A stretch of DNA of 64,000 bases from Bacillota bacterium. GTDB lineage: Bacteria; Bacillota; SHA-98; UBA4971. The stretch covers positions 62,001 to 126,000 of the forward strand of contig DUSX01000004.1 of NCBI GenBank assembly GCA_012842395.1. Reading direction: 5' to 3'. Of this stretch, positions 5,448 through 45,542 are shown piece by piece (the stretch's first letter is position 1; each line of letters starts with the position of its first letter). A model generated the notes under the pieces. It saw nothing but the letters and a program-made list of their open reading frames with translations. It was not told where the DNA came from and ran no database searches. The position numbers and the translations under genes are program-made.

Positions 5448-8264
5448 TCATGCCCGCACCACGGACATGTGACGCAGGAGGGCGCGGCGCGCCTTGCGGG
5501 CCACGACCGCAAGAGCGCTGGACCATCCTGAGAACACGAGAATGATCAACCAGTCCACGCCCCTGAGAGGAACGGTGTGAAAGACGCGTTGAACGGCTGG
5601 CCAATACACCACCGAAACCTGCATCACCGAGGATATCAGCACAGCTCCGACGAGGTATGGGTTGGACCAAGGGTTCAGCTCCACGATGGAGCGATACTCG
5701 GACCGGCAGTGAAAGACGTACAAGAGCTGCGCCATGACCAGGGACGTAAAAGCGACGGTGCGCGCGCGCGTGATGTCCGCATGGAGAAAGAGGGACACGA
5801 GAAACGCCGCTATCGTGCACAGACCGATGAATACGCCCTGCGAGGCTATCTTGAGTCCGAGCCCCCTCGAGAACACCCCCTCCTTGGGGTCCCGTGGCTT
5901 CCTCGTCATCACATCCGGGTCCACCGGGTCGACACCGAGCGCGATCGCCGGAAGGCCGTCGGTCACGAGATTCATCCACAGGATCTGCATGGGCACGAGA
6001 GGCAACGGCAATCCCACAAGCACCGCGATGAGCATTGAGAGAACCTCGCCGGCGTTGCACGCGAGCAGGTATCTTATGAACTTACGAATGTTATCGTATA
6101 TCCCGCGGCCTTCTTCAACGGCCGCGACGATGGTGGCGTAATTGTCATCGGCGAGAACCATCGCGGCGGCCTCACGGGTGACGTCGGTGCCGGACATGCC
6201 CATAGCCACGCCGATGTCCGCCTCCTTGACAGCGGGTGCGTCGTTCACGCCGTCGCCTGTCATCGCGACCACGTGTCCCTGGCTCTTGAGCGCCCGCACG
6301 ATCCGGAGTTTGTGCTCGGGGGATACCCTCGCGAACACCGACGTCGTGACCACCGCCTTCGAGAAAGCCTCCCCCGTCATGTGATCGATCTCCGGTCCCG
6401 TGATGGCCCGGGCCTCGCCGTCCGCGAGTTCGAGGGCGCTGGCCACGGCAGTGGCCGTCCCCGCGTGATCTCCGGTTACCATGATCGTCCTGATGCCGGC
6501 GCTGCGGGCGGTCCTGATGGCGCGCTTCACATCCTCTCGCGGAGGATCCACCATCCCCGCGAGGCCGACGAACACGAGGTCCGTCTCGATGCGGCCCGCT
6601 GAACGGACATCCAGGTGCAGGCCCTCCGGAAGCTCGCGATACGCGAGGGCCAGCACGCGCAAGCCGCGCGCGGCCATCCGCGCGCTTCGCGCGAGAACGG
6701 CGTCCCTGTCGCTCCTTGTCATGGGCCTTGCCTGCCCGCCCACCAAGAGCGAGCCGGACAAGCCCACCAGCACCTCGGGCGCACCCTTGACGTAGGCGAT
6801 GGCGCCCCTGCCTCGTGGGTTCTCGTAGACAGCGGTCATCATCTTGCGCTCCGGGTCGAAGGGGATCTCGTACAGGAGCGCTGCCCGCCCGCCCGACGGG
6901 GCCCGGTCGCGGAGCAACCCTGCTTTGGCCGCGGCCACCACAAGAGCCCCTTCCGTGGGATCACCCAGAACGCCCCATCGGCCGCCGGCGGGGCCGCGTC
7001 GCGTCGCGCGTGCCGCAGCAGGCTGCATAACCGAGTCCGGACCGGCCACTTGCCCGCCGCACGTAAGCCGCGCGTTGTTGCAGTACAGGCCGATCCGGAG
7101 GGCCAGGGCAAGGTGGTCATCGGCAAGTGGATCGAGGGGTCTACCGGCCTCGATGAACTGCCCGAACGGGGCGTAACCGGTGCCGGTGACCTCTATCAAC
7201 CTGCCGCCGAGGTCCAGCTCCGTCAGGGTTATCTCGTTCCGGGTGAGGGTGCCCGTCTTGTCAGAGCAAATCACTGTCGTGCAGCCCAGGGTTTCCACGG
7301 CCGGCAGGCGCCGCACTATGGCATTCCGCTTGCTCATCCGCTGCACACCGAGGGCAAGGGCTATGGTCACCACCGCGGGCAGGCCCTCGGGAATAGCCGC
7401 CACAGCCAAGCTGACCCCGGCGAGGAACATCTCGATGACCCCTTCGCCGCGCCAGATGCCAGCCGCAGAAACGAGAGCGCACAGGGCGATGCAGATGAAC
7501 ACGAGCGTCCTGCCTAGGTGCTCGAGCCGCCGCTGAAGAGGCGTGAGCTCCTCTCTCTCCTCCTGTATCAGGTGGGCGATCCGGCCTATCTCGGTATCCA
7601 TGCCAGTTGCGACGACCACAGCCTTCCCCCTGCCGCGCGTGACGACCGTGCCCATGAAGACCATGTTCCGCCTGTCTCCGACCGGCACAGTCGCCGCCAA
7701 GACGTCGTCCGATCTCTTGACGACGGGCACCGACTCGCCGGTAAGTGCCGACTCCTCCACCTCTAGGGCGGTCGTCTCGACCAGCCGGGCGTCCGCCGGG
7801 ATCCTGTCGCCGACCTCGACGAGGAGGAGGTCTCCAGGGACGACCTCCCTCGCCTTCACCTCCATGGGCGCACCGTCCCGGATGACCCTGGCGGACGGTG
7901 CCGCAAGCTCCTTGAGCGCTTCGAGGGAGCGCTCCGCGCGATACTCCTGCAGAAAGCCAAGAGCTGCGTTCAGGGTGACGATGGCCAGGATCGTGAAGGC
8001 ATCGCCTGTCTCTCCCAGCGCCGCCGATATCCCGGCCGCCGCGATGAGCACCAATACCATGAAGTCGCTGAACTGGTCCGCAAACATCTTGAGAGCCGAG
8101 GCCTTCCTGGCTTGCCGAAGCTCGTTGGGCCCGGTTCTGCCGAGCCTCCTTGCCGCCTCCCTCGAAGACAGCCCCGCCACGAGGCTGGTTCTGAGGCACG
8201 ACGCCACCGCGGACGGGCCCATGCTGTGCCACGAGTGCTCCTTCCGGTCCTGCAAGACGCTCAC
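5448..8264 (-). CDS. Calcium-transporting P-type ATPase (P2A, SERCA-like)
   Basis: This 938-aa membrane ATPase exports cations, most likely Ca2+, at the cost of ATP. The actuator TGES is at residues 175-178, the M4 ion-binding IPEGLP at 291-296 and the phosphorylation site DKTGTLT from D335. The hinge TGDGVNDAPAVKEADIG is present. M5 CNAGEV and M6 NLVTDGLPA supply the Asn/Glu and Asn/Thr/Asp expected at both SERCA Ca2+ sites, so Ca2+ is favoured over Mn2+ or Na+. The N-terminus is a cation-ATPase-N domain (LSSREAARRLGRTGPNEL). The GTG start has AAGG eight bases upstream. It is divergent from rqcH. Confidence 0.93.
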   Translation of the reverse strand: MSVLQDRKEHSWHSMGPSAVASCLRTSLVAGLSSREAARRLGRTGPNELRQARKASALKMFADQFSDFMVLVLIAAAGISAALGETGDAFTILAIVTLNAALGFLQEYRAERSLEALKELAAPSARVIRDGAPMEVKAREVVPGDLLLVEVGDRIPADARLVETTALEVEESALTGESVPVVKRSDDVLAATVPVGDRRNMVFMGTVVTRGRGKAVVVATGMDTEIGRIAHLIQEEREELTPLQRRLEHLGRTLVFICIALCALVSAAGIWRGEGVIEMFLAGVSLAVAAIPEGLPAVVTIALALGVQRMSKRNAIVRRLPAVETLGCTTVICSDKTGTLTRNEITLTELDLGGRLIEVTGTGYAPFGQFIEAGRPLDPLADDHLALALRIGLYCNNARLTCGGQVAGPDSVMQPAAARATRRGPAGGRWGVLGDPTEGALVVAAAKAGLLRDRAPSGGRAALLYEIPFDPERKMMTAVYENPRGRGAIAYVKGAPEVLVGLSGSLLVGGQARPMTRSDRDAVLARSARMAARGLRVLALAYRELPEGLHLDVRSAGRIETDLVFVGLAGMVDPPREDVKRAIRTARSAGIRTIMVTGDHAGTATAVASALELADGEARAITGPEIDHMTGEAFSKAVVTTSVFARVSPEHKLRIVRALKSQGHVVAMTGDGVNDAPAVKEADIGVAMGMSGTDVTREAAAMVLADDNYATIVAAVEEGRGIYDNIRKFIRYLLACNAGEVLSMLIAVLVGLPLPLVPMQILWMNLVTDGLPAIALGVDPVDPDVMTRKPRDPKEGVFSRGLGLKIASQGVFIGLCTIAAFLVSLFLHADITRARTVAFTSLVMAQLLYVFHCRSEYRSIVELNPWSNPYLVGAVLISSVMQVSVVYWPAVQRVFHTVPLRGVDWLIILVFSGWSSALAVVARKARRALLRHMSVVRA

Positions 8265-38004: not shown

Positions 38005-38838
38005 CTAGCACATCTCCCCGGCCTCGTACAGAATGACGGATGCCACGACGAGCCCCGCCGTTTCAGTGCGAAGTATCCTCGGCCCCAGACCGCATGTTAC
38101 CGCACCACACTCTACAGCTTGTCCAACCTCTTCGCGGGAAAACCCGCCCTCGGGGCCGATGAGCACGAAGATGTCGCGGGCGCCGCTGCGCTCGCGCAGC
38201 ACTTCCCGGATGCCCCGCGATCTCTCGAGCTCCCAGGGCATGATCGTCAAGTGGTCATCCCCCTCACCCGCGCACGCCTCCGCCGACAAGCGTATGAACG
38301 CTAGCGCCTCCTGGAAGCTCATGATGTCAAGCACGTCAGGCACGCGCTGCCGACCGGACTGCTTGGCCGCCTCCCGCGCGATCCGCCTCCACCGCTCAAC
38401 CCTTCTCGGCGCCGCGGTCGGATCGGGCCGCGCGACGGTGCGCTCCGTTACGACAGGCACGAAACGGCCGACACCGACCTCGGTGTTCCTCCTGATGACC
38501 TCGTCCATCTTGTCGCCCTTCGGGACCCCTTGCAGGAGAGAAATGAATACAGAGGGCTCACGGCATACGTCGTTGCCCTCTGCGAGCGTCAACTGCACCT
38601 CATCACTGGCGGCCCACGTGATAAGTCCGCGGCGCTCAGCACCTGTGCCGTCCACGACCTCGATCTCGTCGCCCGGTCCAAGCCTGAGAACGCGGACGAT
38701 GTGCCGCGCATCCTGGCCGGTTATCACCGCTCGAGAGCCGGATTCTGTGTGCCCGGGCACGAAGAATCTTGGGCGCCCGCGCTCACGCGTGGCGCTCCCA
38801 TGCGTCGCGGACCTTTTGGAAGAAGGTTCTCGGTTCAT
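38005..38838 (-). CDS. rsmE: 16S rRNA (uracil-1498-N3)-methyltransferase
   Basis: RsmE methylates U1498 of 16S rRNA. It has the N-terminal PUA-like segment PRFFVPG...[22 protein letters not shown], then [28 protein letters not shown], and the SPOUT knot [15 protein letters not shown] and [15 protein letters not shown]. The ATG at 38838 gives 277 aa and overlaps dnaJ by 56 bases; no later in-frame start precedes the conserved PRFFV. The usual prmA gene between dnaJ and rsmE is missing. Confidence 0.93.
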
Positions 38839-39931
38839 CGTCAGTCTTGTGTGCACCCCGCAGCCTGGCGAGCTCGCGAATGAGCTCCTTCTCCCTGTCT
38901 GTAAGCCTCGTCGGCGTCACGACTTTGACCCGGACGTACTGATCCCCGCGGGGCCCGCCGTGTACGTCCGGAATCCCTTTCCCTCTGAGGCGGAAAGCCG
39001 TCCCGGTCTGGGTGCCTTCTGGCACCTGCACCGAAGCTCTGCCGCCGAGCGCTGGCACCTCGATCTCGTCGCCCAGGGCGGCTTGCCAAACGCTTATGGG
39101 GACCTCGCAGTAGATGTCGTTCCCCCGGCGCTCGAAAATCTCATGCGGCCTCACGGTGATGAACACGAAGAGATCCCCCGGCGGCCCGCCGCGCGTCCCG
39201 GCCTCGCCTTCGCCAGCCACGCGCACGCGCATTCCCGAGTCCACCCCGGCAGGGATCCTGACCCTGATCTTCTTGCGCTTCCGGACCCTTCCCCTCCCCT
39301 GGCACGTCTGGCACGGAGATTCGATCACCCTCCCCTCGCCCCCGCAGCGAGGGCAGGTCGTGATGCTCGTGAATCTTCCGAACGCCGTGGTCCGCACCTG
39401 GGTGGTCTGCCCTCGGCCGCCGCAGACCGGACAGGTGATCGGCGACGTGCCCGGCTTTGCGCCGGTGCCGCCACACGAGGAGCAAGTGTCGAGGCGCACC
39501 ACCTCGATGTCCCTATCGAGCCCGGAGGCGGCCTCTTCAAGGGAGATCTCGAGATCGTACCGGAGGTCAGCCCCGCGCTCTGGGCCCGTGCGCGGGGCAC
39601 GGGCCCCGCCGAAGCCGCCTCCGAAGAACATGTCGAAGATGCTGTCGAACGACGTCCCGAAGTCGCCAAAGTCCCAACCGCCCGCGCCGCCGGGCCCGCC
39701 CGCCGGGCCTTCGGCTGCGTGGCCAAACTGGTCGTACCGGCGCCGTTTCTCGGGGTCGGACAATACCTCGTACGCCTCGTTTATTTCCTTGAACTTCTCC
39801 TCGGCCGACGGATCCTCTTTGTTCATGTCGGGGTGATACTTGCGCGCAAGCTTCCGGAACGCCTTTTTGATCTCGTCCTGGCTCGCGTTCCTGTCCACCC
39901 CGAGGACCTCATAATAATCGCGCTTTGCCAA
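38783..39931 (-). CDS. dnaJ: Chaperone DnaJ
   Basis: DnaJ delivers substrates to DnaK and stimulates its ATPase. The 382-aa type I protein has a J domain ([24 protein letters not shown] with HPD), a Gly/Phe region, and four zinc motifs [24 protein letters not shown] and CQTCQGRG, followed by the C-terminal substrate domains. The start appears to be TTG after GTGAGGA. It lies 46 bases after dnaK. Confidence 0.96.
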
Positions 39932-39977: not shown

Positions 39978-41870
39978 TTACTCGTCCTTGACCTCTTTAT
40001 ACTCGGCATCGACCACGTCATCGCGCCCTGACGAGCGCGTCCCGCCCGCGCCTGCGGAAGACCCGCCCGTCCCTGTCGCTCCGCCGTCTCCGGCTGCACC
40101 GCCGCCGCCCGCTCCTGCTCCAGCTCCGGCAGCTCCAGCGCGGCTGTACATGGCTGTGGTCACCTCGTGCAGGGCGCTTAGGAGCTCGTCCTTGCGAGCC
40201 TTGATGGTCGCGATATCCTTGCCGGCCAGCGCCGACCGCAGGCCCTCCTTCGCCCTCTCGACCTTGGCCGCTTGATCGCTGGATATCTTGTCCTTGTGCT
40301 CCCTGAGCGTCTTCTCAGCGGTGTACACCAGCGAGTCGGCCTCGTTTCGGAGCTCAGCCTCTTCCTTTCTGCGCTTGTCCTCCTCCGCGTGGGCTTCCGC
40401 TTCCTTCACCATGCGCTCGATGTCCTCGCGGGACACGCCGCTCGAGGAGGTGATGGTGATCTTCTGTTCGCGCCCGGTTCCGAGGTCCTTGGCAGACACG
40501 TGGACGATCCCGTTCACATCAATGTCGAAGGTCACCTCGATCTGGGGCACCCCCCGGGGCGCAGGCGGTATCCCAGTCAACTGGAACCTGCCAAGGGACA
40601 CGTTGTCAGCGGCCATCGGGCGCTCACCCTGCAGCACGTTGATCTCGACGGTGGTCTGGTTGTCGGCCGCAGTCGAGAATATCTGCTTCTTGGTAGTGGG
40701 GATCGTGGTGTTGCGCTCGATGAGCTTCGTGAAAACCCCTCCAAGGGTCTCGATCCCAAGCGAAAGGGGCGTCACGTCGAGGAGCAGCACATCATGCACC
40801 TCGCCCGAGAGCACGCCGGCCTGGATGGCCGCGCCCAGAGCCACGACCTCGTCCGGGTTCACGCCCTTGTGGGGTTCCTTGCCGATAAGGTCTCTGATAG
40901 CCCTCTGGACCGCCGGCATCCTAGTCTGCCCGCCCACGAGGATCACTTTGTCGATGTCCTTGGGCTCGAGCCCCGCGTCTTCCAACGCCCTGCGCGTGGG
41001 CCCCAGGGTCTTTTCAACGAGGTCCTGGGTGAGCTCCTCCAATTTCGCCCTCGTGAGCGTCATATCGAGGTGCAGCGGCTGCCCGCTCGAATCGGCGGCG
41101 ATGAACGGAAGGTTGATGTTCGCGGTCACTAGGCCTGACAGCTCGATCTTAGCCTTCTCAGCCGCCTCGGTCAGTCGCTGCAGCGTGACCCTGTCTTTGC
41201 GCAGGTCTATCCCGTGCTGTTTCATGAATTCCTCTGCGATGTAATCCACGATCCGCTTGTCGAAGTCGTCCCCGCCGAGGAGGTTGTTGCCCGACGTGGC
41301 CTTCACCTCGAAGACGCCGTCCCCGAGCTCCAGAATGGACACGTCGAACGTGCCGCCACCGAGGTCGAACACGAGGATCGTGTGGTCCTGGCCCTTGTCG
41401 AGCCCATAGGCCAGGGCGGCAGCGGTTGGCTCGTTGATGATCCGAAGGACCTCGAGGCCTGCGATCCTTCCCGCATCCTTCGTCGCTTGGCGCTGCGCGT
41501 CGGTGAAGTACGCCGGGACAGTGATCACGGCCTTGTCGATCTTTTCGCCAAGGTACGCCTCAGCGTCCTCCTTGAGCTTCCGGAGGATCATGGCGGAGAT
41601 CTCCTGCGGGGTGTACTCCTTATCGTCGATCTTCACTCTATAAGTTGTGCCCATCTTTCGCTTGATGGAGAGAACGGTCCTCTCAGGGTTGACGACCGCC
41701 TGCCTCTTCGCAACCTGACCGACCATCCGCTCCCCTGTCTTCGAAAACGCCACAGCCGAGGGAGTGAGCCTCGAGCCCTCGGCGTTCGGGATGACCTTCG
41801 CCTCGCCGCCTTCCATCACGGCGATCACTGAGTTGGTTGTTCCGAGATCTATTCCCACTACTCGCGACAT
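39978..41870 (-). CDS. dnaK: Chaperone DnaK (Hsp70)
   Basis: DnaK is the central Hsp70 chaperone. The 630-aa protein begins [22 protein letters not shown] and shows [33 protein letters not shown] and [14 protein letters not shown]. The substrate domain has [15 protein letters not shown], and the tail is Gly-rich ending [14 protein letters not shown]. Two adjacent ATG codons follow GGGGGGTAGG; I chose the second. A longer in-frame reading runs back into grpE and is rejected. It lies 142 bases after grpE. Confidence 0.97.
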
Positions 41871-42012: not shown

Positions 42013-42738
42013 TCAGTCTGCCGCCCCCTGGGTGTCGGGCGGCTTCGCGTCTTCGCCCGATTGATCGTTGACCCGGTCCGCACGCGACTCCAAGAGCTCG
42101 TCGCCGCTGTCCAAGTGCTGAGGCTCGCCTGCGGCCGCCTCGCCGGCCGATTGCCGGTCAGGCTTGCATGCCACCGTGACGAGCGCAGGCCTGATGACGC
42201 GGTCCTTGGATGCGTATCCCCGCTGGACCTCCTCCAGAACCACGCCCTCCTCCACCGAGTCGGTGGGCACCCTTAGTATAGCCTCATGCCTCATGGGGTC
42301 AAAAGGCTCCCCGGCGGCGGAGATCGGCTTTACCCCCTCCTTCTCGAGGAATTCGAGAAACTTGCCCATCACGAGATCGAGGCCCCGGGCTGTGGCTTCG
42401 TCAGCCGCCGTGCCGGTCTTGGCGTGTTTTATCGCACGCTCCAGGCTATCCAGGGCCGGAAGCATGTCTTTGACCAGGCCCTCCACAACCAACGCCCGCA
42501 GCTCCGCCTGCTCGCGGGCCGCCCGTTTCTTGAAGTTCTCCAGATCAGCCTGGGCTCGCTGCCAACCGGCGAGATATCTCTCCTTGAGCGCGATCTCTTC
42601 CTTCAGCATCGCCTCAAGGCTCGGCCCGTTGCCGACGTCCTGGGAGGGAGTGCCTTCTTGCGGTTCACCCTCGGGATGACCGCCCTTTTCACCTTCCGCG
42701 GGTGCACCACCCTGGCCCTGCAAAGCGTCCTCGCTCAC
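42013..42738 (-). CDS. grpE: Nucleotide exchange factor GrpE
   Basis: GrpE releases ADP from DnaK. The 241-aa protein has a disordered acidic N-terminus, the long helix ([25 protein letters not shown]) and the beta-wing [42 protein letters not shown]. It has an unusually long C-terminal tail of about 45 polar residues. Its GTG start overlaps the chaperonin stop by four bases (GTGA). Confidence 0.96.
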
Positions 42739-44297
42739 GTGCCCGCCTCCTTCGCCTCACCTACGTTATCCTCTCTCTTTTTCACTATCCTGTCAATCCT
42801 GAGGACAGCCTCCCCCACCTCCGCGGCGGCTTTCAGCGCGTACAGCTTCACGGGGGCGGGATCGACCACGCCCATTACGAGCATGTCGGCTATCTCACCC
42901 GTGTCACAGTCTATGGCGAGACAGTCGCTTCCCGCCGCTGCCTGCGCGGTCACGACTTCCTCGACTTTCTCGAGAGGGTTGTACCCGGCGTTCTGAACAA
43001 TCTGGGCAAGCGGGCGCTTCAGCGCGGCCACGACGCAGTCCACGCCATAAGCCGCCATGCCCTTCACCTCGTGCCTCACCGCCGCAAGGCTCCTCGCGGC
43101 GGAGATCTCGGCCGCCCCACCGCCCGGGACCACGCCTCCTCTGACAGCGGCCTGCACCGCCGAGACGGCGTCATGCGCGATTCTCTCGCGCTCCCCGACG
43201 ACGTCTCTCGTCGCTGCGCCCACAACGATCGTGGCCATCGGCCTGCCCCGTCCGCCGACTATCCGGATCTCCGAAAGCTTTTCATCCTCGTACACCCTCT
43301 CTGCGGTCCCGAGGACCTTCTCGATCTCGGCGACAGGCCTCGCAAGCCACGAACGCTTCACCGGACGCGCGCCCGTGTGTTCAGCCACCTTTCTAAGGTC
43401 GCGCCACGACACCCTCGTCGCGACCATCACACCCGCATCCGTGAGGATATCCTCCGCGACATCCGCGATCCCGTGATCCACCAAGATCACGTTGACCCCG
43501 CACGCCACCAGGCGTCTCAGGTTGTTCTCGAACTCCTCCTGGAGCGAGAAATGCCTCTCGATGCCACGCTCGGTGGCGAGCGCTTCATCATCGAGCTTCT
43601 CAGGCTCGAGCGCGTCATCGACCACGAGGATCCTCGCCGTGGCCACGCTTACAGGCATGTGCCTGTTGTGCCTGGCCTTCTTCACGATGACCCCCATGAA
43701 TACCTCGTTTGCTGCCCCCTCCTGGGCGACTATGGCGTCCCGAAGCCGGAACGCCGGGTCGAGTAGGCTGTCCACGCCGACAAGCCTCGCGGCGTCCACG
43801 GCGAGCGCGGCTATGTCGCGATGTCCTCGTCCGGCAGTGTAAGCCACTCGGAGAAGGAGAGGGTCGTCCAGGCCCTCAATGGGACGTGCGGACCGCTCCA
43901 GCGACTCAAGGGCCGCTTTCGCGCCCGCCCTGACCCCGTCTATGAGACGCGGCACGGGCACGCCGTCGGCGACCATGTCCAGCCCGGCCTGCACGAGCGC
44001 GCTGGCCATTATCGTGGCGGTGGTGGTCCCGTCGCCGATCTCCTCTTGCTGGGCTCGGGCGACGTTGATGAGCATCCTCGCAGCGGGGTGCGTCGCCTCC
44101 ATGCGCTCGAGGATCGTGCACCCGTCGTTTGTCACGACCACGTCCCCGAACCTGTCGACGAGCATCGTGTCCAGCCCCTTAGGCCCGATCGTGCCCTCTA
44201 CGGCGGACGCCACCGCGCGAAGCGCAGACGCGTTGGAGATGAGCGCCGCCATCCTCTCGTTCCCAGTGCCCTCCGCCGCCTTGTGAGGCTCGCCCAA
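42735..44297 (-). CDS. Archaeal-like (group II/III) chaperonin in the dnaK operon
   Basis: The 520-aa protein belongs to the thermosome/TCP-1 side of the chaperonin superfamily, not to GroEL. It has [25 protein letters not shown], the ATPase [10 protein letters not shown] (from residue 88), [16 protein letters not shown] in the apical domain, [16 protein letters not shown] and [24 protein letters not shown]. Such bacterial homologues are known in Carboxydothermus hydrogenoformans and relatives as group III chaperonins, also in the dnaK locus. The start is probably TTG. It lies between hrcA and grpE, so CIRCE heat-shock control is expected. No groES/groEL is in the window. Confidence 0.93.
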
Positions 44298-44327
44298 GAA
44301 GACCCCTCTCTTCCCGGAAACAGTTTT

Positions 44328-44354
44328 ATGGGGCTAAGCTGACCTTAACCCCAT
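44328..44354. other. Imperfect palindrome between hrcA and the chaperonin gene
   Basis: ATGGGG-C-TAAG...CTTA-A-CCCCAT forms a near-symmetrical hairpin in the 102-base gap between hrcA and the chaperonin gene. No T-tract follows on the minus strand, so it is not a standard terminator. It may be an RNA processing or stability element. Confidence 0.4.
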
Positions 44355-44399
44355 GCGCCTGGAAACACCCCATGCCGTGCAGTGACCGCCGCGCTTGTG

Positions 44400-45449
44400 T
44401 TACATGAGGAGGATCCTCGTGAGGACATCGCCGAGGTTCTCGGCCACGAACTCAACCAGAGCCACGACGCGCGAGTAGTGCATGCGGGTCGGGCCGACGA
44501 CGCCGAGAGCCCCCATGGGGACGCCCCGGACCTCGTACGGCGCACTCACGATGCTGCAGGGCTTCATGCTCGGGTGCCCTGCTTCGCGGCCGATCATCAC
44601 GGTCACGCCCCTCGCTTCAACCACACCGGACAGAAGCGCGTAAAGCGCGTCGTCTTCGGCCAGAAACTCGAGCACCGTCCGGGCCTTCGAGATATCCTGG
44701 AACTCTGGCTGCTCGAGAAGATTCACCTGTCCATCGCTGTACACTTGCTCCTCGTGCCGGTCTTCCAGCGACTGCGCGATCGCCTCGAGCGCGGCGTCGA
44801 CGAAGGTGTTGTACTCGTCGAGCTCTGCCTTGATCTCGCGCAGGAGCGAGGCGCCGATGCGAGACAGCGGAAGATTGGCAAGCCGCGAATTGAGGAACTC
44901 TGCGATGTTTGCCAGCTGCTGCCTCGTCAGCGGATGCCCCGTCGCAACGAGGTGAGTGCGAACGAAACCGGGATCAATTACGAGGACAACGAGCACATTC
45001 ATGCTGTCAACCGGCAGGAGCTCGATCCGCTTGAATACGCCCGCCTTTGAGATCGGCGATAACACGAAAGCGGCGTACTTCGATAGCTGCGCTAGTATAC
45101 GCGCCGTTTCCTCGATTATGAGCTCGATCTCGCGTCGCCTTTCCGCAAGGGTCCGCCTGATCCTCGCTCTCTCATCCTCGGATACGGGCTTGCGCTTCAT
45201 GATGAAGTCGACGTAGAAGCGATATCCCTTCTCGGACGGAATGCGCCCCGCCGATGTATGAGGCTGTTCGAGGTAACCCGATTCCTCGAGATCCGCCATC
45301 TCATTCCTGATCGTGGCAGGACTGACTCCGAGGTTGTACCTACGCGCGATGGTGCGGGATCCTACCGGTTCCGCCGTGTTGATATAGTCATCGGTGACCG
45401 CTTCCAGTATGCGCCTCTTCCTGGCGTCCATGTCAGGCTGGAAGCCCAT
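44400..45449 (-). CDS. hrcA: Heat-inducible transcription repressor HrcA
   Basis: HrcA represses class I heat-shock genes by binding CIRCE. The 349-aa protein has an N-terminal winged helix (RRILEAVTDDYINTAEPVGSRTIARRY, SPATIRNEMADLEESGYLEQPHTSAGRIPSEKGYRFYVD) followed by the GAF-like sensor domain and dimerisation region. I chose the ATG at 45449 after AAGGGGGATCCGTG; an earlier in-frame codon lies inside the CIRCE region. It is the first gene of the operon. Confidence 0.96.
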   Translation of the reverse strand: MGFQPDMDARKRRILEAVTDDYINTAEPVGSRTIARRYNLGVSPATIRNEMADLEESGYLEQPHTSAGRIPSEKGYRFYVDFIMKRKPVSEDERARIRRTLAERRREIELIIEETARILAQLSKYAAFVLSPISKAGVFKRIELLPVDSMNVLVVLVIDPGFVRTHLVATGHPLTRQQLANIAEFLNSRLANLPLSRIGASLLREIKAELDEYNTFVDAALEAIAQSLEDRHEEQVYSDGQVNLLEQPEFQDISKARTVLEFLAEDDALYALLSGVVEARGVTVMIGREAGHPSMKPCSIVSAPYEVRGVPMGALGVVGPTRMHYSRVVALVEFVAENLGDVLTRILLM

Positions 45450-45472
45450 CACGGATCCCCCTTCGTCCTTTG

Positions 45473-45499
45473 TTAGCACTCACACAACCAGAGTGCTAA
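45473..45499 (-). promoter_or_regulatory. CIRCE operator
   Basis: A perfect 9-bp inverted repeat TTAGCACTC/GAGTGCTAA with a 9-base spacer matches the CIRCE consensus exactly. It sits between the promoter and the hrcA start, where HrcA binding would block transcription of the whole operon. Confidence 0.97.
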
Positions 45500-45512
45500 A
45501 CTTCCCGCGATA

Positions 45513-45542
45513 AACATACCACCGGGCTTCGCCCTTTGTCAA
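45513..45542 (-). promoter_or_regulatory. Sigma-A-like promoter of the hrcA heat-shock operon
   Basis: TTGACA and TATGTT are separated by 18 bases on the minus strand, and the CIRCE repeat starts 13 bases downstream of the -10, covering the expected transcription start. Confidence 0.8.

Follow-up and report, generated by a model that had tools for sequence, protein, structure and literature searches.

The locus studied here raises the question of why an archaeal-like chaperonin is encoded within the dnaK heat-shock operon of a bacterium: which kind of chaperonin it is, how it would be controlled, and whether it works with the Hsp70 machinery encoded beside it. The window, by which we mean the whole 64,000-nucleotide stretch that was analysed, carries on its minus strand a sigma-A-like promoter, a CIRCE operator, hrcA, cpn, grpE, dnaK and dnaJ, arranged in this order as one operon (Table 1). 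The earlier note had described a chaperonin of 520 residues lying between hrcA and grpE, behind a perfect CIRCE and a good promoter and overlapping grpE by four bases. Gene, operator and overlap are all present, and the promoter, which agrees with the consensus at 10/12 positions, is correctly placed, though with 2 such sites in the region against 0.5 expected the match is weak on its own. The spacer between its -35 and -10 elements also holds a short palindrome, GGGCGAAGCCC. The start of hrcA, which as the single PF01628 match in the genome encodes its sole HrcA, should be set at the ATG at 45449 or the GTG at 45452, as the mechanically listed GTG at 45479 falls inside the CIRCE. The cpn reading frame opens with a TTG codon preceded by the ribosome-binding site GAGAGGGG, and the GTGA shared by its stop and the grpE start suggests that translation of the two genes is coupled.

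Table 1. Features of the hrcA-cpn-dnaK operon in the window, in order of transcription, followed by the mini-ORF found in relatives
Feature	Position	Strand	Basis or detail
Promoter, sigma-A type	45513..45542	-	TTGACA-18-TATGTT, TG ahead of the -10; consensus match only
CIRCE operator, perfect	45473..45499	.	TTAGCACTC-N9-GAGTGCTAA, hrcA 5' leader; 0 expected in shuffles
hrcA, heat-shock repressor	44400..45449	-	TIGR00331, 344 bits (cut-off 197)
Hairpin, 11 bp	44328..44354	-	AUGGGGUUAAG-GUCAG-CUUAGCCCCAU, hrcA-cpn gap
cpn, group III (thermosome-like) chaperonin, 520 aa	42735..44297	-	Sequence, profile and structure matches
GTGA overlap, cpn stop and grpE GTG start	42735..42738	-	Read from sequence
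grpE	42013..42738	-	PF01025
dnaK	39978..41870	-	NF001413, 977 bits
dnaJ	38783..39931	-	TIGR02349, 470 bits
IIB mini-ORF (relatives, outside the window)	L051:6107-6385; L062:~6119-6364; L071:6048-6326; L094:6093-6419		cpn-dnaJ gap

Sequence and predicted structure together identify this chaperonin as a Group III CPN, neither a GroEL nor an archaeal thermosome, in agreement with the archaeal-like, group III identity that had been proposed for it. A sequence search of the PDB placed the reconstructed ancestral group III chaperonin 9rwq first (1.9e-178), a protein named ACIII in its paper and ACII in its PDB title. The best natural match was 5x9u, Ch-CPN of Carboxydothermus hydrogenoformans (1.7e-127), with archaeal thermosomes at about 5e-64, and identity to Bacillota relatives outside its own genus is 53-62%. 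No group III model was among its NCBIfam matches. The loop and active-site residues that define group III were taken from PMC5635000 and compared in an alignment of the window chaperonin with two archaeal CPNs, Ch-CPN and a single relative. Here the nucleotide-sensing loop is 6 residues shorter than in group II, a deletion common to Ch-CPN, and the built-in lid is shortened in both proteins by a 4-residue deletion relative to the two archaeal CPNs. Residues D58, D89, R157 and D376 align with D56, D87, R155 and D373 of Ch-CPN, the three catalytic aspartates being intact and R157 standing where group II has a lysine. The predicted structure (pLDDT 88) includes the helices of the apical lid, and in a structure search 5x9v came first (rmsd 1.9 over 492 columns), it and 5x9u preceding every group II entry, while the best 50 matches were all group III, group II or CCT. 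A chaperonin of this built-in-lid type would need no GroES partner, as had been suggested. That the protein is instead a divergent group I GroEL using GroES is scarcely credible, for although it belongs to the same superfamily (PF00118), the genome encodes a separate GroEL with an adjacent GroES, the GroEL model TIGR02348 has a cut-off of 582 bits and scores only 155, and GroEL does not appear among those 50 structure matches.

The tree gives group I and group II one fully supported branch each, and the window chaperonin lies outside both. The placement check that the earlier note had called for thus sets it outside GroEL by tree, as by the NCBIfam models and the structure search. Its genus groups with L048 and L015 with a support of 98%, and L015 and L010 (the twin of L048) come from genomes of the window's class. 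AU tests built on an unconverged tree search did not reject monophyly of group III against I plus II (p-AU 0.78), and likewise did not reject alternatives in which group II, or indeed group I, joins the clade of the window chaperonin. By sequence, structure and tree the protein groups with Ch-CPN and Bacillota CPNs, apart from groups I and II; because the search is unconverged and fixes neither the root nor the junction of II and III, we make no claim on horizontal transfer versus relic.

A scan of genome contigs from GTDB species found 382 places encoding candidate relatives of the chaperonin, and the best 80 of these are all bacterial records. Among this best 80, the full hrcA-cpn-grpE-dnaK-dnaJ order lies within the flanks of 65, and a CIRCE with 0-2 mismatches precedes hrcA in each of the 76 with upstream DNA; in 53 of 71 relatives cpn and grpE follow each other closely. 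Chaperonin distances correlate with those of hrcA (Mantel r 0.86), dnaK (0.83) and dnaJ (0.79), consistent with mostly vertical inheritance within the operon, though such correlations are no sign of physical interaction because linkage alone makes operon genes co-evolve. Recent insertion of an archaeal thermosome (group II) gene into the operon is very improbable. The next-best PDB relatives after group III are archaeal and thermosome models head the NCBIfam matches, but these models reach only 279-284 bits, far under their cut-offs of 400-671, the protein lacks the two loops specific to group II, and cpn resembles the adjoining genes in G+C and GC3. The bacterial origin of all the best 80 relatives and the way in which chaperonin distances track those of the operon partners also speak against such an insertion, as does the tree, where the six group II rows together form a single 100% branch that excludes the window chaperonin.

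The earlier note had pointed to group III chaperonins at the dnaK locus of Carboxydothermus and relatives, and this location is indeed typical of the family (PMC5635000; best 80 of the 382 relatives). Both the family and its dnaK-operon location are already published (PMC5635000, PMC5220055, PMC12696368); group III CPNs in dnaK operons have been in print since 2010-2017, and the arrangement is known from hundreds of related bacteria. The window gene is one more species in this published family and ordinary for its kind. For Ch-CPN the references are Techtmann & Robb 2010 and An et al. 2017 (PMC5635000). Three individual loci deserve mention in their own right. At L019 (G030:C1, ~1798352-1802392) the group III cpn, flanked by hrcA and grpE, is interrupted by an (AT)n dinucleotide run that shifts its frame, possibly through phase variation, decay or a sequencing slip; at L182 the cpn match falls in two pieces around 1370-1391, with a small indel or frameshift as a possible cause; and L020, at first sight an odd thermosome-like bacterial protein, proved to be an ordinary GroEL.

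The genome (3.14 Mb, 98% complete) holds exactly two cpn60-family genes and one groES, the latter beside the other cpn60 on C18. The search for groEL and groES proposed earlier therefore finds both, under a perfect CIRCE of their own, which together with that of the hrcA operon makes up the two CIRCEs of the whole genome. CPN is additional to GroEL in every group III bearer among 40 relatives. The sole full-length DnaK and the sole GrpE of the genome sit in the window operon, and prefoldin was searched for in the genome and found absent, control matches arising only in archaea. With HrcA and a perfect CIRCE in cis, the proposed HrcA/CIRCE control holds at the level of sequence. We consider it highly probable that the locus, taken as a whole, represents a Group III CPN inherited with the dnaK operon, folding proteins independently of GroES and induced by heat through HrcA and CIRCE. 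Ch-CPN forms double eight-membered rings, has ATPase activity and folds proteins free of GroES (PMC5635000); by analogy, the window protein would most likely assemble into a double ring with eight subunits per ring and a built-in lid, hydrolyse ATP and fold its clients without GroES. As in B. subtilis, HrcA bound to CIRCE would repress the operon, and heat would lift this repression so that HrcA, CPN, GrpE, DnaK and DnaJ rise together, with groESL under the same repressor via the second CIRCE.

A further layer of control may lie directly behind hrcA, where the window and loci L005-L010 and L130-L137 share a hairpin motif (GGGGUUAAG/CUUAGCCCC) that occurs once in the window and is absent at groES. 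Its 9-bp core, with a U-G wobble among the pairs, occurs in all families sampled in the window's class and is kept whether the next gene is cpn (the window's genus and f3), grpE (f2) or dnaJ (g2). The loop measures 4-10 nt across the class, two outer pairs covary with both sides changed, and 99% of cells pair in the alignment as against 25-58% when it is slid; at L015 the 3' arm is degenerate and pairing is retained. No Rfam match was found for the hairpin. RNase Y of B. subtilis cuts between hrcA and grpE and so frees chaperone synthesis from its coupling to the repressor (PMC11313650), and this likeness makes the hairpin a candidate mRNA-processing or stability element, which would probably mark transcript processing that leaves repressor and chaperones in different amounts. 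A DNA operator is less likely because loop length varies and the outer pairs covary. A general hairpin excess in hrcA-cpn gaps was set aside as non-specific, since dnaK-dnaJ gaps show it too.

That CPN acts as part of the Hsp70 network, as had been suggested, is plausible, though as yet unproven. Clients might pass from DnaJ/DnaK to CPN, a speculative step that is made plausible by the absence of prefoldin and for which membership in the operon is weak support. It is a real possibility, somewhat short of an even chance, that cpn resides in the operon for dosage or co-regulation only, as part of class I heat shock and with no direct link to DnaK/DnaJ; groESL is under the same control from outside the operon, which fits this reading. 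Lineages in which the linkage breaks bear on both sides. Nine Fermentithermobacillaceae-like loci (L045, L050, L051, L062, L071, L081, L089, L091 and L094, the upstream part of L045 being outside the comparison) read hrcA-cpn-dnaJ. The idea that DnaK was lost from these genomes was rejected, as dnaK and grpE were found elsewhere in them, at a separate locus with the order dnaK-grpE and without CIRCE in the five loci read. That cpn in this group retains CIRCE-hrcA control after dnaK-grpE moved favours co-regulation alone, but cpn also remains next to dnaJ after dnaK departs, which argues for a closer tie. In g2, a sister genus within the family to which the window's species belongs, group III CPN occurs in 0/7 genomes. 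At its loci L138-L140 (G007, G009 and G006) hrcA is followed directly by dnaJ, with cpn, grpE and dnaK gone from there, and full-length DnaK is encoded elsewhere in six of the seven genomes and GrpE in all seven. The remaining genome, G008, shows no full-length DnaK; its assembly is 90% complete, so the sequence is possibly missing. The g2 DnaKs are 64-68% identical to that of the window and 68-78% identical to the relocated DnaKs of the Fermentithermobacillaceae-like group; for DnaK from another family of the window's class, identity to the window's DnaK is 88%. The simplest reading is that DnaK-GrpE of g2 was replaced from another lineage and the native block then lost. Loss of cpn from a genus that retains a DnaK of another source again fits co-regulation, but its disappearance along with the native dnaK-grpE points the other way.

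A further observation that bears on partnership comes from ten Fermentithermobacillaceae-like genomes (L051, L062, L071, L094 and L178-L183), which carry an intact ORF of ~80-110 aa between cpn and dnaJ (the L182 contig stops short of dnaJ) and have dnaK-grpE elsewhere, where checked. The match of this ORF to the Hsp70 family is confined to positions ~229-302, namely subdomain IIB of the nucleotide-binding domain (NBD), the lobe on which GrpE takes hold and which it rotates (PMC10825016). A dN/dS of 0.14-0.44 across six close pairs indicates purifying selection, and the predicted fold (pLDDT 84, from a four-row alignment) can be overlaid on DnaK to within 0.8 A across 75 columns with 41% identity; L050, L081, L089 and L091 of the same group have no such ORF. 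In origin the ORF is most likely what was left behind when dnaK moved away, and selection, judged from these ratios, has retained it; its product may act as a CPN/DnaJ adaptor, sequester GrpE or serve as a regulator. No description of a stand-alone IIB protein was found in the literature searched, and a search on the CCT-Hsc70 interface gave nothing on subdomain IIB. Retention of this peptide between cpn and dnaJ counts against co-regulation alone, as does the direct binding of CCT to Hsc70 that has been reported (cited in PMC5635000), though for the flow of clients the kept dnaJ neighbour and IIB lobe are suggestive only. A bolder proposal holds that group III CPNs work with DnaJ and use Hsp70 subdomain IIB as a docking surface, with IIB kept as a small adaptor where dnaK-grpE left and full DnaK filling this role in the window's species. 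We regard it as unlikely, but if true the adaptor would reveal the portion of DnaK on which the chaperonin pathway depends.

These side findings in relatives are of more interest than the window chaperonin itself, and the two clues that they give, on control (the hairpin) and on partners (IIB), are apparently undescribed. The relatives offer direct handles on a question from the literature, whether group III CPNs take clients from DnaK/DnaJ, through natural separations of the genes (cpn-dnaJ without dnaK, and cpn lost with native dnaK) and through a stand-alone IIB peptide amenable to expression and binding assays, while the hairpin after hrcA supplies a class-wide model for uncoupling repressor from chaperone synthesis.

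Among known systems, Ch-CPN (5X9U/5X9V) is like the window chaperonin in fold, loop loss, short lid, catalytic Arg/Asp and site in the dnaK operon; the two are 43% identical, the window protein being nearer to other Bacillota CPNs than to Ch-CPN. The archaeal thermosome of group II shares the overall fold and the built-in lid but differs in its identity of 31-33%, in the 6- and 4-residue deletions of the window protein and in scores below the NCBIfam cut-offs, and the genome that holds the window has no prefoldin. The mini-protein model of the relatives resembles subdomain IIB of the Hsp70 NBD (DnaK lobe II, 5OOW) in fold, but consists of ~80-110 residues alone, with the rest of Hsp70 missing. 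The HrcA/CIRCE class I regulon of B. subtilis is matched by an HrcA equivalog and by CIRCE before both hrcA-...-grpE-dnaK-dnaJ and groES-groEL, and the hrcA mRNA cleavage site of that species lies, like the window hairpin, just after hrcA (PMC11313650). The dnaK operon of B. subtilis differs in that the window has cpn inserted between hrcA and grpE.
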